Origin: a virus
Reading direction: 5' to 3' (one strand)
Virus record (IMG/VR): IMGVR_UViG_3300025132_000196
Location: 1-29,861 of that record
DNA length: 29,861 nucleotides
Shown here: positions 5,242 through 12,471 of the stretch, piece by piece
How positions within the stretch are numbered: position 1 is the first letter of the stretch
Layout of the letters: each line of letters opens with the position of its first letter
The notes under the pieces: generated by a model
Database searches by the model: none
Told to the model about the DNA's origin: nothing
What the model saw: only the letters and a program-made list of their open reading frames with translations
Position numbers and translations under genes: made by a program

Positions 5242-6459
5242 ATGAATGAAAGTATGAAAGCAGAAATCGAAAAGAGCGCACCATATATTGATATGGGCGT
5301 TGATGAGGCAATAGCCAAGTTTGAGGAACTATGTTCAGCAAACGGGCTTGAAACAACCAACCCTGCATCTATGGGTGTATGGAGAAACTATGTGGCAAAT
5401 AGCCGCAGAATGAAAAAGAATGGTAATGAAAGTAAAAATGATAATGATTCATTTTACAAAGCAGCATTTGGATTCTTTGTTTCCCTTGACGCACCAAGAG
5501 ATATGATGGCTTGGAACAGAATGAAAGCAAAAGAAGAATACCTGCGTGATGAAAACAATGCACTTGAAAATGGTATTGTTGCAGTAGCAACAAAGAATGC
5601 TCTTGACAAGTGGGTAGTTTCCCGCTATCATAATGGTGAATATAGAGAAGCAACTCTTTCTGAATTACCTAACGGTGCAGAAGAATTAGAAGATGGCCGT
5701 ATCTATATTCCATTGGATAATACCGCTACATATATGAATGGCGGAACCAATGCTAATTATGGAAAACCTCTTCCTTCTGAACAAATGCGAAGAAGTGGAG
5801 TATTCTATGGTTCATTAGATAATGGAGATATGAGAATGTATTACTTCTCATACAAGAATCAAGGCGGTGTTGATTTTGCACCTAACACTTTTGAATGGTG
5901 TCATTTCCTTTGTGTTGAAGGTTCTAATGGTACAGATATTTATGGTGCTAAGGATTTGACTTCGGGTAGTTTGTCACTAAATGCAGACATTGACCCCGAA
6001 AGCAACATTTACCGTGATATGGGTAACTTTTCCTTTGAGAATTGTTTGAAGGAAAACTTTGAATCTAACTTGGTAAATATCCTTGATTTGGATAGAGCGC
6101 ATATTCAGCGACAAGCACTTCCTTCTAAGGAAAGATACATCATTACTGATGGAACAGTTTGTAACATGAATATGACTCCAACTAAGAACGGTAATAGAAT
6201 TATCAACATTACTGACATTAACGCTGAAATGAATTATGAAAGTGATTCTGGCGTTGTAACTTGTTGGATTCCCGAACATCTATCCTTAGATTTCGGTATT
6301 GGTTCAACAGTATATGTTGTAGGCAGAACAAGTCAAAGAACAGTTGATGGTGAAGTGGAACCTGTTACAATCAATGCCTCCGGTGTTCATTGTGTAATTA
6401 GACATGGTTCTCCGGTTGAATCTAATCAACCTGTGGAGGAAAACTTTGATTGGTTTTGA
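5242..6459 (+). CDS. Probable ssDNA-binding protein (RPA/SSB-like)
   Basis: The product (405 aa) has a helical, charged N-terminal 150 residues followed by a long beta-rich part. A stretch near residues 300-385 (ITDGTVCNMNMTPTKNG, then IINITDINAEM, GSTVYVVGRTSQRTVDG) has the strand pattern of an OB fold. The protein ends in an acidic, aromatic tail, EENFDWF, of the type SSB proteins use to recruit partners. The position between clamp loader and RadA/PCNA/polymerase genes agrees. The OB fold is inferred from pattern and not from a signature motif, so a different replication protein is possible. The start is preceded by GAGGCG. The 37-base gap before it shows no clear promoter. Confidence 0.6.
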   Translation: MNESMKAEIEKSAPYIDMGVDEAIAKFEELCSANGLETTNPASMGVWRNYVANSRRMKKNGNESKNDNDSFYKAAFGFFVSLDAPRDMMAWNRMKAKEEYLRDENNALENGIVAVATKNALDKWVVSRYHNGEYREATLSELPNGAEELEDGRIYIPLDNTATYMNGGTNANYGKPLPSEQMRRSGVFYGSLDNGDMRMYYFSYKNQGGVDFAPNTFEWCHFLCVEGSNGTDIYGAKDLTSGSLSLNADIDPESNIYRDMGNFSFENCLKENFESNLVNILDLDRAHIQRQALPSKERYIITDGTVCNMNMTPTKNGNRIINITDINAEMNYESDSGVVTCWIPEHLSLDFGIGSTVYVVGRTSQRTVDGEVEPVTINASGVHCVIRHGSPVESNQPVEENFDWF

Positions 6460-6465
6460 AGTGAT

Positions 6466-6640
6466 ACTCCTGTAAATCTCCCCTAGAAATGTCGTGCGGT
6501 TTTGCCCAAAATCGCAGTTTATAGTGGGGTATGATGTGTTGGCGACATTACAGAATTCATATTGAGATTTACATTCGGGCAAGGTAAATGTGACTTGCGG
6601 GGAAATTGACATTCAAATGGGTGCAAAGCCCACACTTTAG
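6466..6640 (+). ncRNA. Candidate structured RNA element between ssDNA-binding protein and a small gene
   Basis: This is the longest gene-free stretch in the + block, and it is richer in G+C than its surroundings. Stem P1 pairs TGTAAATCTC (6471-6480) with GAGATTTACA (6564-6573), 10 perfect pairs. Inside it, P2 pairs AATGTCG (6488-6494) with CGACATT (6543-6549). Stacked directly on P2 is hairpin P3, TGCGGTTTT (6495-6503) with AAAATCGCA (6508-6516), loop GCCC. That loop is complementary to GGGC at 6577-6580, a possible pseudoknot. Downstream are GCAAG/CTTGC (6579-6583 with 6594-6598, an alternative to the pseudoknot at its first bases) and TGGG/CCCA (6618-6621 with 6629-6632), ending just before the next ribosome binding site. 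It could be a cis-regulatory leader, a processed small RNA, or a DNA-level origin structure. No known RNA family was recognised. Confidence 0.55.
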
Positions 6641-6649
6641 GTGATTATA

Positions 6650-6931
6650 ATGGAATTATACGAAAATGCAATACAAACAGATAGAGCGTTCATTTATTTT
6701 AATAAAATAGCGCATATCTCTTGGAAAGAAACAAACTTAGGGACAAATCCGAACAGTAAAAGAATGGTTTTGTATGAAGTAAAGATATATTCAGATGCAG
6801 GAGTTATTCTTCAAAACATGACTCCGAGCGAATACCATTCCTTCATACGAACATATAAAGAAAATGTTCAAAAAACAATAGTAAGAGATGTTACAGGAAT
6901 AGATATTAATGGTGATATACATGGATATTAA
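6650..6931 (+). CDS. Small beta-rich hypothetical protein (93 aa)
   Basis: Start ATG 6650 is preceded by AGGTGATT at 6639-6646; a GTG at 6641 is inside that site and less likely. The product shows strands RAFIYFNKIAHISW and MVLYEVKIYSD, then a helix EYHSFIRTYKENV. The next gene encodes a protein with the same order of elements, so the two may be a diverged tandem pair. No family was recognised. It is the first gene after the structured element and could be the gene which that element controls. Confidence 0.75.
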   Translation: MELYENAIQTDRAFIYFNKIAHISWKETNLGTNPNSKRMVLYEVKIYSDAGVILQNMTPSEYHSFIRTYKENVQKTIVRDVTGIDINGDIHGY

Positions 6932-7184
6932 AGAAAATAGATTTTTATTAAAAGAAAACAGTTACATTGTTGATTTGTTCAATGTGGACTTTATCACATT
7001 CAAAGAGAATGAAAAGGATTTTGGTTCATATTGGATTAAATTACATATCGGCTCAAAAGAAGTCAGATACATATGTGACGATATAGACAAATTAAAAGAA
7101 ATAGTGGAATTATGGTGTGGAATACACGGCAAAACAATTTCACTTGATGAAACAGACTTGGTAGGTGAGAACCAATGGGATTGA
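6921..7184 (+). CDS. Small beta-rich hypothetical protein (87 aa), possible paralogue of the previous gene
   Basis: ATG 6921 has GGTGATAT at 6911-6918 as its ribosome binding site; a GTG twelve bases earlier is less likely. The layout repeats that of the preceding protein: SYIVDLFNVDFITF, then YWIKLHIGSKEVRYI, then a helix DKLKEIVELWCGIHGKTI. Similarity is in pattern and spacing and not in strong identity. It overlaps the previous gene by 11 bases and the RadA-like gene by 10 bases. Its final codons contain AGGTGAG, used as the next gene's ribosome binding site. Confidence 0.75.
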   Translation: MDIKENRFLLKENSYIVDLFNVDFITFKENEKDFGSYWIKLHIGSKEVRYICDDIDKLKEIVELWCGIHGKTISLDETDLVGENQWD

Positions 7185-8768: not shown

Positions 8769-10421
8769 ATGATAATATCTAAAACGAATGACAATAAAAA
8801 TATTTATTCAAGTTGGAGAGAAAACGGAGAAAAGAAAAGCAAGGTTGAGGAATTCAGACCTTATTTCTATGTTCTTGATGATGCTAAGGAAATACCCTCG
8901 TATAGACCTTCTAAGACTTTGATTCGACCTTTTGAATATGAGAAAGGAGATTGGGTTAATCTTGATGGACAACCACTAAAGAAAGTATATGTGGATAATT
9001 CTTATGATATTAAGAACGCACAGAAACTATTCTCTCAAACCTTTGAAGCAGATGTACCTTACCATTTCCGCTATTGTGTGGATAACCTAAATGATATGCC
9101 AGAATATAAGATGCGTAAATGGTATTGGGATATGGAATGGCAACAAGGCGGTGAACATCATAACGAGATTACTACTATTGTAATGTATGATAATTATGAC
9201 GAAAAATACTTTCAGTGGGTTTGGTTTCCTAAAAAGAAAAATATAGGAAGAATGCCTAATTATAATATGTATATATTTGATAATGAAAAAGACATGATTG
9301 AATCTTTTATGACTACAATGGTAGCCAAAGACCCCGATATGTTGATTGCTTGGTTCGGTCACTTTGCAGATATACCTAAATTGCTTGAACGAGCGTGTAT
9401 TCTTGGAATTGACCCAACAGTAATGTCACCGTTTGGGTCAATTAAGGGCGTTAAGAAGGTCAAGGATGGATTCAAATTCGCCTATGCTGAAAAAGGGTTC
9501 TCGCCTATCGAACAGCCCATAGGAGGCCGCATAACCCTTTCATTAGACATGGCTTTTGAGCGTCAATGGAATGATTCTCAAAGAGGAACATTACCATCTT
9601 TAAGTCTTGATTATGTTTCTGAAAGTGTATTAGGTAAAAAGAAATTAGTATCAGAAAAGTTTCCCGATACAAATGAGTTTTACAGATATGGTTGGTTAAA
9701 AGATACTGAAACTTATTTACAGTATGCTATAAAAGATGTTGAATTAATTGTTGAAATAGATGAAACTAACTTTTGTAGTGAGGCTATTCTTTCACTTCAA
9801 AGATTATTGATAGCACCATTTGATGCTTGTTTCTATGCTTCTCATATGGGTTCAATCTATTTTATGCGTAATGCTGAATGGAAAGCACCAACAGGAGTTA
9901 AAGTCGAAAAGAGAAAACAATATCAAGGTGCTATGATTTATGACCCGCTAAGTGAAAACACAAACGGCTTGCATTTAGGTGTAGCCGCATTTGATTATGC
10001 GGGTCTATATCCAAGTATGATTGTAGCGAGAAATATTTCATTTGAAACTAAATCAAGCGAACCAACGGAGTTTGGAGTAAATATTCTAACCCCAAGAGAT
10101 TTTAGCGAAGTCAAAGAAACACAAATGGTGTATTTCAAAACAGATAAATTGGGATTAATCCCAAGAGCAATTTTGGAATTGAAATCATTAAGAAGTAATT
10201 ACAAAGCAAAAATGAAAGAAGCAAGAGAAACTAACAATGGAGAATACGCTAAGTGGTATAATAACCAAATGGCAGTAAAGAGATTATCTGCGTCTTTCTA
10301 TGGGATTCTTGCGTTTCAAGGGTTTGGATGGGCTGATGTTGATTTAGCCGCTTCTATTACTGCAAGTGCAAGAGAAGCAATTAGATTAGCCGCATTTAAG
10401 GCAAAGGAGATGGAAGAATGA
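8769..10421 (+). CDS. polB-N: Family B DNA polymerase, N-terminal part (exonuclease, palm and fingers)
   Basis: The product (550 aa) holds most of a PolB. Exo I is YWDMEW with D121 and E123. Exo II is a variant, WFGHFADIP, keeping D201 but not the usual Asn and Phe. Exo III is YAIKD with Y319 and D323. Motif A is DYAGLYPS from D409. Motif B in the fingers is KRLSASFYG from K504. It then stops after the helix that follows motif B, at KAKEMEE, just where a continuous enzyme would run into the strand carrying motif C. The missing part is encoded at 11581. Both halves align end to end with little or nothing lost, so the parts probably assemble into one enzyme. The stop overlaps the next start as ATGA. 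Confidence 0.95.
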   Translation: MIISKTNDNKNIYSSWRENGEKKSKVEEFRPYFYVLDDAKEIPSYRPSKTLIRPFEYEKGDWVNLDGQPLKKVYVDNSYDIKNAQKLFSQTFEADVPYHFRYCVDNLNDMPEYKMRKWYWDMEWQQGGEHHNEITTIVMYDNYDEKYFQWVWFPKKKNIGRMPNYNMYIFDNEKDMIESFMTTMVAKDPDMLIAWFGHFADIPKLLERACILGIDPTVMSPFGSIKGVKKVKDGFKFAYAEKGFSPIEQPIGGRITLSLDMAFERQWNDSQRGTLPSLSLDYVSESVLGKKKLVSEKFPDTNEFYRYGWLKDTETYLQYAIKDVELIVEIDETNFCSEAILSLQRLLIAPFDACFYASHMGSIYFMRNAEWKAPTGVKVEKRKQYQGAMIYDPLSENTNGLHLGVAAFDYAGLYPSMIVARNISFETKSSEPTEFGVNILTPRDFSEVKETQMVYFKTDKLGLIPRAILELKSLRSNYKAKMKEARETNNGEYAKWYNNQMAVKRLSASFYGILAFQGFGWADVDLAASITASAREAIRLAAFKAKEMEE

Positions 10422-10915: not shown

Positions 10916-11181
10916 ATAAAGAAAATGAAGAAATAAAAAGACTAACAATGGAAAATGAAGGTCTTGCCGATAGAATAGAAGGCTTAGACGAAAGAATTAG
11001 AGATTTAGAAGGCAAAATCGAAAGATTGGAAATAGAATTAGAGGGTCTATACAGCCAAGATACGCCGGAAATGTATCTTATAGCAAGAGCAGTACATGAA
11101 ATGCAACAAGACCTGCTAAAATTGCATCCTGAATTAATAATCAATAATTTAGTATATGCGCCAAATAAGGTGGGAATGTGA
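10912..11181 (+). CDS. Coiled-coil protein (89 aa)
   Basis: Residues 1-47 form an almost uninterrupted acidic coiled coil, with repeats such as IEGLDERIRDLEGKIERLEI. This is followed by a short helical region (MYLIARAVHEMQQDLLKLHP) and a hydrophobic end. The start has GGTGAT upstream and an ATGA overlap with the membrane peptide gene, so the two may be made together and might interact. No family was recognised. Confidence 0.75.
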   Translation: MNKENEEIKRLTMENEGLADRIEGLDERIRDLEGKIERLEIELEGLYSQDTPEMYLIARAVHEMQQDLLKLHPELIINNLVYAPNKVGM

Positions 11182-11423
11182 TGCCTTTCACATACAATAG
11201 AACATGGTCTGAAATACAGGATATGCTTGATAAAGCAGAACGCAAACAAAACATGCACTTTACAAAAATGCAGAATGCTAAGAGTAACGACAGAACATCT
11301 GTCAATGGTAAAGTAGTCAAATCACGAATCTATCACATGCGTAACTATAAAGCATTAGAAGGAGTAGTTAAAGCACTTAGATGGACTCTTGGCGATAAAG
11401 ACATTGAACACCCATTGGAGTGA
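11181..11423 (+). CDS. Small basic hypothetical protein (80 aa)
   Basis: ATG 11181 shares its A with the previous stop (TGATG); a GTG at 11178 would also fit. The product is basic and helical: FTYNRTWSEIQDMLDKAERK, then a Lys/Asn-rich linker, then RIYHMRNYKALEGVVKALRW. The charge suggests nucleic acid binding but no motif proves it. It stands among the six small genes between the polymerase halves. Confidence 0.7.
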   Translation: MPFTYNRTWSEIQDMLDKAERKQNMHFTKMQNAKSNDRTSVNGKVVKSRIYHMRNYKALEGVVKALRWTLGDKDIEHPLE

Positions 11424-11428
11424 TTAAG

Positions 11429-11584
11429 ATGAATAAGAAAACGAAGCAAGAATTATTAGATTGGTTTTCTCTTCAAATTGATGATGTGACTTCAATCGCT
11501 ATTAAAAAAGATACAGTAACTCTTTTTGTCAATGGAGTAGTTAAGGGAATTATATCTTATCAAAGAATAGGTGATTCAAAATGA
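11429..11584 (+). CDS. Small hypothetical protein (51 aa)
   Basis: A short frame from ATG 11429 to TGA 11582-11584 encodes MNKKTKQELLDWFSLQIDD followed by strands SIAIKKDTVTLFVNG and VVKGIISYQ. It is coupled by ATGA to the polymerase C-terminal gene, whose ribosome binding site AGGTGATT lies in its last codons. The helix-then-hairpin layout is compact and plausible. No family was recognised. Confidence 0.62.
   Translation: MNKKTKQELLDWFSLQIDDVTSIAIKKDTVTLFVNGVVKGIISYQRIGDSK
11569..11576 (+). promoter_or_regulatory. Strong ribosome binding site for the polymerase C-terminal part
   Basis: AGGTGATT lies 4 bases before ATG 11581 and is complementary to the 3' end of archaeal 16S rRNA. It supports independent initiation of the second polymerase polypeptide, as opposed to readthrough, frameshifting or protein splicing. 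Confidence 0.7.
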
Positions 11585-12471
11585 AGGTAGTTTATGGACA
11601 TACAGATTCTATTTATGTTCAGATTGATTCAGTCGAGAAGGCTGAAAAAGCAATCAAGCAAATAGAAGAAAGCGTTAGAGAACATTTTCCTAATGTTATG
11701 GGGTTAGATGAACACCCTGTTCAATTAGAGTTTGAGAAGTATTACTCTGCATTAGGTGTTGGTACAACTAAGAACCGCAACGCTGGTTTAGTATCTTGGG
11801 AGGATGGAGTTTGGTTAGATAAGCCAAAATTCACAATGACAGGATTTACTGCCAAAAGAGTTAGTGAAACGAAGTTAGCGAAAGAAGTACAAACTAATAC
11901 CCTAACAATGTGGGTTGAAAACAAATCTCAAGCAGTAATTACTAATTATTTACATGGAGTTTATAGCGATACTTTGAATGGTAAAGTACCAATTACTTCA
12001 GTGATTAAGAGAAGCCGTCTTAGAAAAGATAGACTAACGGTGAAATGCCCCGACTGTAACAAAAAATACAGTCTAAAGGAATGTCAAAAATTACAAGAAT
12101 TACCATACTGTACTAAATGCTCATGTGCAGTTAAGAAGTTTGTAACGCTGGATAATAAGACCCCTTCTTTGGGTTCCGGTATTGCTGGCGTTATTTACGG
12201 TTGGAAAAACAATATAGAGTTTGATGACTCTTATTTGTTTTTGAAAGTAAAGACAAATGAATCGTGGATTCATCCACTGAAACACGATAGAAGAAATGTT
12301 GAGTATATTTCCGGTGCAACTTTGAAGGGCTTTGATAATGTAAAGCCCGATTGGAAGCATTATGCTGAACAAGTAGTGGATAAAGCAAAGCCCATTTACA
12401 AGGCTATGGGATGGGATATATCGAGCATAAGAACAAATAGAATACAAGCAAGTTTGGAGGAATGGTTTTGA
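11581..12471 (+). CDS. polB-C: Family B DNA polymerase, C-terminal part (motif C, thumb, PIP box)
   Basis: The product (296 aa) starts MKVVYGHTDS, so motif C is at the very N-terminus. The usual YGDTDS has His at residue 7 in place of the first Asp, while the metal-binding second Asp (D9) is kept. LEFEKYYSALGVGTTKNRN and GFTAKRVSETKLAKEVQ match the palm and thumb regions of archaeal PolB. A four-to-five-cysteine segment (C156, C159, C177, C180, C182) is inserted in the thumb and looks like a zinc ribbon. The last eight residues QASLEEWF (289-296) form a PIP box, as at the end of archaeal PolB. Together with the part at 8769 it gives 846 aa, a normal PolB length. The start has AGGTGATT upstream. 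Confidence 0.93.
   Translation: MKVVYGHTDSIYVQIDSVEKAEKAIKQIEESVREHFPNVMGLDEHPVQLEFEKYYSALGVGTTKNRNAGLVSWEDGVWLDKPKFTMTGFTAKRVSETKLAKEVQTNTLTMWVENKSQAVITNYLHGVYSDTLNGKVPITSVIKRSRLRKDRLTVKCPDCNKKYSLKECQKLQELPYCTKCSCAVKKFVTLDNKTPSLGSGIAGVIYGWKNNIEFDDSYLFLKVKTNESWIHPLKHDRRNVEYISGATLKGFDNVKPDWKHYAEQVVDKAKPIYKAMGWDISSIRTNRIQASLEEWF

Follow-up and report, generated by a model that had tools for sequence, protein, structure and literature searches.

The gap between an SSB-like gene and a small gene (X) in virus record IMGVR_UViG_3300025132_000196 is a structured RNA on the + strand, probably one of a new and uncatalogued family of cis-acting leader RNAs with a role in translational control. The properties by which cis-regulatory leaders are recognized (covarying structure, sense-strand use, a position directly 5' of a coding sequence and recurrence at several genes) were all observed, together with pseudoknots in both domains of the RNA (A and B), the recurrence of the leader before different genes and the exchange of leader types between viruses. 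It is rather probable that the gap works as a cis-acting leader within a polycistronic viral mRNA, its folded core most likely controlling translation initiation.

Among the microbes of the surface ocean, Poseidoniales (marine group II archaea) rank with the most abundant. The window (the whole stretch of 29,861 nucleotides that was analysed) is part of the virus record named above and carries genes for a DNA ligase, an RFC-like clamp-loader ATPase, a primase-like protein, a Sak4-like ATPase and a family B DNA polymerase in two pieces (Pfam and PHROG assignments). Judged by gene content, this set presumably resembles that of magroviruses, viruses of Poseidoniales. The polymerase halves (8769-10421 and 11581-12471) were separated by approximately 1.2 kb with small genes, and their Pfam matches were consecutive (profile positions 38-193, then 222-370). 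A small protein (..YHMRxxKALEGVxKxLRWxLGDKDxEHPL) was common to the window (11178-11423) and to one record of a second virus lineage discussed below (L095, 4053-4271). The gap, its flanking genes and its elements were as follows:

5242-6459, + strand: upstream gene, OB-fold SSB-like protein of 405 aa with an acidic C-terminal tip (...DWF)
6460-6649, + strand: gap with the leader RNA, between the SSB-like gene and gene X
6471-6573, + strand: domain A, an outer helix (P1) and two crossing helices (P2 and P3)
6471-6480, + strand: P1 5' strand, two-sided changes in 9 of 10 pairs (35 sequences)
6481-6484, + strand: P2 5' strand, crossing P3, 100% paired
6488-6495, + strand: P3 5' strand, 99.6% paired, two-sided changes in two pairs
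6496-6515, + strand: P4, variable hairpin between the P3 5' and P2 3' strands
6526-6529, + strand: P2 3' strand, with covariation
6530-6541, + strand: near-invariant strand UAUGAUGNGUUG
6542-6549, + strand: P3 3' strand, with covariation
6550-6560, + strand: near-invariant strand ACAGANUUCAU
6564-6573, + strand: P1 3' strand, with covariation
6579-6632, + strand: domain B, an H-type pseudoknot followed by a hairpin of T-arm geometry, just 5' of the Shine-Dalgarno and start codon
6579-6583, + strand: stem 1 5' strand GCAAG, 99% paired, two-sided changes
6587-6591, + strand: stem 2 5' strand AATGT, within the loop of stem 1 (H-type pseudoknot)
6594-6598, + strand: stem 1 3' strand CTTGC, with covariation
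6609-6613, + strand: stem 2 3' strand ACATT, with covariation
6618-6632, + strand: T-arm-like hairpin TGGG-TGCAAAG-CCCA (loop UGCRAAG, core GGUGCRAAGCC)
6633-6644, + strand: small predicted hairpin (6633-6636/6640-6643) over the Shine-Dalgarno GGTGA (6640-6644)
6650-6931, + strand: gene X, 93 aa, from the small-protein family 3' of the leader, optional in relatives
6921-7184, + strand: gene Y, approximately 87 aa, predicted beta5-alpha fold (pLDDT 91.7)

The SSB-like protein belonged to no Pfam or PHROG family, and no relatives of it were matched among named phage records. Its AlphaFold model was of moderate confidence (pLDDT 73.8), with best Foldseek matches mostly to SSB and other OB-fold chains. 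The model of Y, with five predicted strands and one helix, was confident and gave no significant or informative fold match in the PDB.

Domain A was aligned in 35 distinct sequences. Helices P2 and P3 cross inside P1, forming a pseudoknot, one helix of which had been missed in the original prediction. The helices were paired in 95.0% of the alignment cells, compared to 85.0% after shuffling and 31-51% after sliding, and two-sided changes were found at 13 of the 26 pairs. One P2 pair was C-G in 17 sequences and G-C in 18, and an extra change in P3 (C-G to U-A) was seen in three further contigs (L426-L428). Neither sequence nor length was conserved in P4, which was missing from the shortest copies; its region folded at -2 kcal/mol or below in 28 of the 35 sequences. 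The linkers UAGAA, UAUGAUGNGUUG and ACAGANUUCAU were nearly invariant, a pattern of conservation pointing to a core for binding or catalysis. A further helix, of AUGA (6531-6534) with UCAU (6557-6560), is possible but cannot be judged because it never varies. Exceptions to pairing, read on the + strand, were G-U in 86 cells and A-C in 7; these G-U exceptions, together with the sense-strand position ahead of a gene in all copies followed, fit an RNA and not a duplex-DNA element.

For domain B (42 sequences), the alignment of stem 1 had to be corrected by hand, by one column, in the window-like group; that of stem 2 did not. Stem 2 was paired in 210 of 210 cells (88% in shuffled alignments), lost its pairing on sliding and showed 36 two-sided changes against 7.5 in the shuffled controls. 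The T-arm-like hairpin was the most conserved segment of the leader family, the pairs of its stem varying with pairing retained, and among the viral loci examined a search with its pattern gave instances only in leader context. A short form of the leader (S) had an equivalent stem 2, paired in 252 of 252 cells with one-sided steps G-C, G-U and A-U at one pair, and the same T-arm. In the leaders listed the T-arm hairpin precedes the start codon and adjoins the Shine-Dalgarno. The hairpin over the Shine-Dalgarno was visible in many leaders, and Shine-Dalgarno pairing in 71 distinct leader tails was slightly above shuffles (0.514 vs. 0.449, p = 0.015); simple sequestration of the Shine-Dalgarno is not established by so small a difference.

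The original prediction, a multi-stem non-coding element with nested stems and a loop contact, was confirmed in part. The gap and its three complementary arm pairs exist where they had been placed and pair as described: an outer stem of 10 pairs (TGTAAATCTC at 6471-6480 with GAGATTTACA at 6564-6573), a stem of 7 pairs (AATGTCG at 6488-6494 with CGACATT at 6543-6549) and, around 6495-6516, a hairpin with as many as 9 pairs and the loop GCCC. The two further small hairpins are also present, the last overlapping the Shine-Dalgarno. Simple nesting, however, does not hold: CCCT (6481-6484) pairs with GGGG (6526-6529) across the 7-bp stem, and in domain B the pairing of 6587-6591 with 6609-6613 makes an H-type pseudoknot, both with the support of covariation. 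The contact proposed between loop GCCC and a downstream GGGC is not conserved, GCCC being there in the window and in only 1 of the 34 other sequences. Two observations had been named as decisive against a conserved RNA: a lack of compensatory changes in relatives, and a folding energy no better than that of shuffled sequence. Compensatory changes were abundant in both domains, but neither the whole gap (z = -0.72; matched by 48 of 200 shuffles) nor domain B alone (z = -1.11) folded better than its shuffles, and only domain A alone did so (z = -2.73; 2 of 200). Energy is a weak test here, because both domains are pseudoknots, which the folding program cannot represent.

Eighty relatives of the SSB gene were retrieved with their flanks and the gaps read; extra contigs with domain A came from an exact search with its core, and three more from a pattern tolerant of P3 changes. 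Three leader types were found: domain A with domain B, as in the window, domain B alone, and the short form S. The leader sits between the SSB gene and X/Y at almost every locus, and in 91 of 92 loci domain B or the short form precedes one small-protein family as the first downstream gene, X being optional and Y regular. Domain A is optional too: in close relatives, nearly identical flanks enclose alternative leaders. Leader types mapped onto a tree of 91 SSB proteins switched many times, with 12 changes needed for the S label and 16 for domain A. In two pairs of viruses (L036 and L047; L066 and L068) the flanks on both sides showed 93-100% identity per 60-base block along most of the stretch compared, and the leaders differed from the SSB stop to the T-arm. 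Another relative (L062) encodes the same SSB protein as the window, and has a short hairpin in place of domain A. The T-arm and ribosome binding site are constant and the part preceding them is swapped. In the closest relatives (L062 and L001), the small hairpin replacing window positions 6471-6573 appeared to retain a P1-like stem. One virus record of 184,733 bases (G303), approximately twice the usual size, carried two SSB-leader loci (36,925 and 127,088) and may be a chimera or a join of two genomes.

Covariance models for the short form (R2) and domain B (R3), both constructed from this locus, picked up more copies, some in virus records and some in Poseidoniales genome bins; two separate models were used, since stem 2 was misplaced when all core copies were aligned jointly, whether with MAFFT or with the model. 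The stronger matches were read and the weaker ones (L442-L447) left out. The pseudoknot, T-arm and ribosome binding site were found before small genes that follow a UvrD-like helicase gene (L448, L460 and L462), and a leader was found at another SSB-X/Y locus (L449). Leaders in genome bins preceded small genes (L450, L455 twice, and L464, where the small gene adjoins a ThiF/E1-like gene), a ThiF/E1-like gene (L452) and a small gene followed by a JAB-like gene (L454; ThiF/E1-like and JAB-like by Pfam). Some of these bin matches may be binned viral or mobile DNA. Stem 2 pairs in all 12 of the other-gene copies tested. Stem 1, which lay outside the search models, was found in most of them, with a total of 134 against 52.7 for shuffled sequence over the 12 copies and p values from 0.007 to 0.395 for single copies. 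Several copies of domain B were found within some genomes.

Other matches (L451, L453, L463, L465, L466 and L467) were discarded, as they lay within coding sequence or were without leader features. In a magrovirus-like record (L461, approximately 1220-1363), a real domain B leader preceded a gene and lay directly 3' of a putative tRNA-Arg (TCT) gene, the tRNA being recognized by eye. Four bins (L431, L452, L454 and L464) carried ThiF/E1-like and JAB-like genes and small proteins of ubiquitin-like appearance, several with a domain B leader; in L431 a tRNA-Leu gene was close to a copy of domain A.

Away from this SSB gene, convincing copies of domain A were found only in a second virus lineage (two tandem copies in L090 and one in L095, all without domain B) and in one Poseidoniales bin (L424), whose contig has one gene in common with L090. 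All of these copies are on the sense strand, upstream of a gene. Each full-size record searched had at most one convincing copy, and no full-size record with the short leader had one anywhere. In the second lineage, domain A lay in a long non-coding leader (L090, 7150-7920, - strand; L095, 8700-9733, + strand) preceded by AT-rich repeats and accompanied by other repeated units of structured appearance (GTCCACACTGG...). A match of 26 bits in G128 was doubtful and was discarded, a loose gapped pattern run against the viral and genome collections gave chance matches among those listed, and when the new pattern loci were searched again with the covariance model only L195 was real among the matches listed.

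Taken together, covariation, G-U and not A-C exceptions and constant use of the sense strand give good support to the conserved RNA that had been predicted. The suggestion that it might be a regulatory leader is likewise well founded: the element always lies between or before genes, its domain B ends at the ribosome binding site, and it recurs before unrelated genes. The interpretation first offered, which had also listed a processing site, a small RNA and a DNA structure, is in this way partly supported.

As a leader, the RNA would be transcribed together with the SSB gene in one polycistronic viral mRNA. The core in domain B would fold into the H-type pseudoknot and then the T-arm-like hairpin, immediately 5' of the next gene's Shine-Dalgarno. 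It would most likely control translation start, either by governing access to that Shine-Dalgarno or by contacting the ribosome or a tRNA-binding factor, much as the tRNA-like yjdF leader does in bacteria. Domain A would be a pseudoknot module, optional and exchangeable on its own, whose single-stranded core is near-invariant; it probably serves as an aptamer-like sensor or stabilises the mRNA. The downstream genes have no obvious common pathway pointing to a ligand. Because the second lineage has domain A without domain B, the two domains may do different jobs. A bolder version of this leader, which we regard as possible though doubtful, is a modular translational switch of Poseidoniales viruses and mobile elements, in which a tRNA-mimicking core of pseudoknot and T-arm would act on the ribosome under an interchangeable sensor (domain A), the cassette being swapped between near-identical genomes as if under diversifying selection, for example by host defence or host factor type.

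It is unlikely, though worth weighing, that the leader is instead a protein operator, at which SSB, X/Y or a host protein would bind the pseudoknots and repress or activate translation of the X/Y operon. Its place between the SSB gene and X/Y at almost every locus and the single family of first downstream genes in 91 of 92 loci speak for this, and a protein could well bind at the near-invariant unpaired strands of domain A. However, domain B is also found before genes unrelated to X/Y, domain A does not follow this SSB gene in the second lineage, and the swapping of leader types between viruses with near-identical SSB goes against a tight pairing of SSB and operator.

Quite improbable as well is a processing or stability element, self-cleaving, nuclease-recruiting or exonuclease-resistant, which would separate the SSB message or protect the message downstream. 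The intercistronic position fits this, a double pseudoknot with invariant core strands has the general look of ribozymes and exonuclease-resistant RNAs, and the T-arm-like hairpin could attract tRNA-processing enzymes, one copy lying directly 3' of a tRNA gene; but no catalogued ribozyme matches, domain A is optional, and domain B is held tightly at the ribosome binding site, which processing does not need. Resemblances to RNase P, HDV-like and hammerhead RNAs were considered and found no supporting match. Readthrough of the SSB stop or frameshifting was also considered and dropped, the frames past the stop in the window soon meeting stops.

We think it very unlikely that domain A is a virus-encoded small RNA, released from the message or separately transcribed and acting in trans. 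In the second lineage it is found in non-coding DNA with no domain B, in one case as a tandem pair, which would agree with such a role; but these copies likewise have the sense orientation and a gene downstream, the sequences of P1 and P4 vary freely and so leave no conserved antisense-like seed outside the core, and no full-size record searched has more than one convincing copy. A DNA structure, for instance a replication origin (the alternative proposed originally) or a recombination site, is scarcely credible. It would accord with the location among replication genes, with the AT-rich repeats that precede domain A in the second lineage and with the exchange of leader types as cassettes; against it stand the G-U exceptions with few A-C, the strict sense orientation, the constant tie of domain B to a start codon and the several copies of domain B in some genomes.

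The cis-acting leader was compared with catalogued and published RNAs. Rfam 15 gave no match to the gap at gathering or relaxed E-value, besides one chance match to a miRNA (16 bits), and cmscan of the gap and the short-form leader at E <= 5 gave no match to the yjdF family or a T-loop-RNA family. ARAGORN found no tRNA or tmRNA cloverleaf with an acceptor stem in the window. No description of either fold was found in the part of the literature that was covered, the portions of a magrovirus survey reached by keyword do not mention structured regulatory RNA, and none of the papers found describes such an RNA in Poseidoniales viruses. Two folds supported by covariation, placed before several genes that include ubiquitin-like conjugation cassettes in genome bins, would open a way into gene regulation of a host-virus system that is uncultivated, and would be a ready source of aptamer-like modules.

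Protein gp32 of phage T4 acts on translation at a pseudoknot in its own mRNA (the gene 32 translational operator). The present leader is similar, with a pseudoknot close to a start codon in an operon that serves viral replication and encodes an SSB, but it lies downstream of the SSB gene, before another family, and its core recurs at unrelated genes. The preQ1, SAM-II and fluoride riboswitches are small pseudoknot riboswitches; like them, domain B is a compact pseudoknot directly 5' of a ribosome binding site, but its sequence is different and it has no match in Rfam. The cobalamin riboswitch contains a T-loop. T-loops are also present in T-box RNAs, RNase P and the L1 stalk, and are used in recognition of the tRNA elbow (PMC4810234). 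The loop UGCRA fits the five-nucleotide T-loop pattern, although the rest of all these RNAs, the cobalamin riboswitch included, is absent here; that T-loops serve in recognizing the tRNA elbow makes the ribosome or tRNA-binding factors reasonable, though no more than guessed, contact partners.

The yjdF riboswitch is a tRNA-like leader that activates translation and whose T-loop arm can pair with the Shine-Dalgarno in the off state (PMC9142559). It shares with the present RNA a structured mRNA leader and a T-loop hairpin adjoining the Shine-Dalgarno, and by analogy may be its nearest functional precedent. Domain B is not a yjdF member by topology or by covariance model: yjdF is bacterial and forms a four-way-junction cloverleaf related to tRNA-Lys, whereas domain B is an H-type pseudoknot with one T-arm, in archaeal viruses. 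A structured mRNA leader is a known kind of element, while the two folds, the archaeal-virus setting and the exchange of cassettes appear to be new within the searchable scope.
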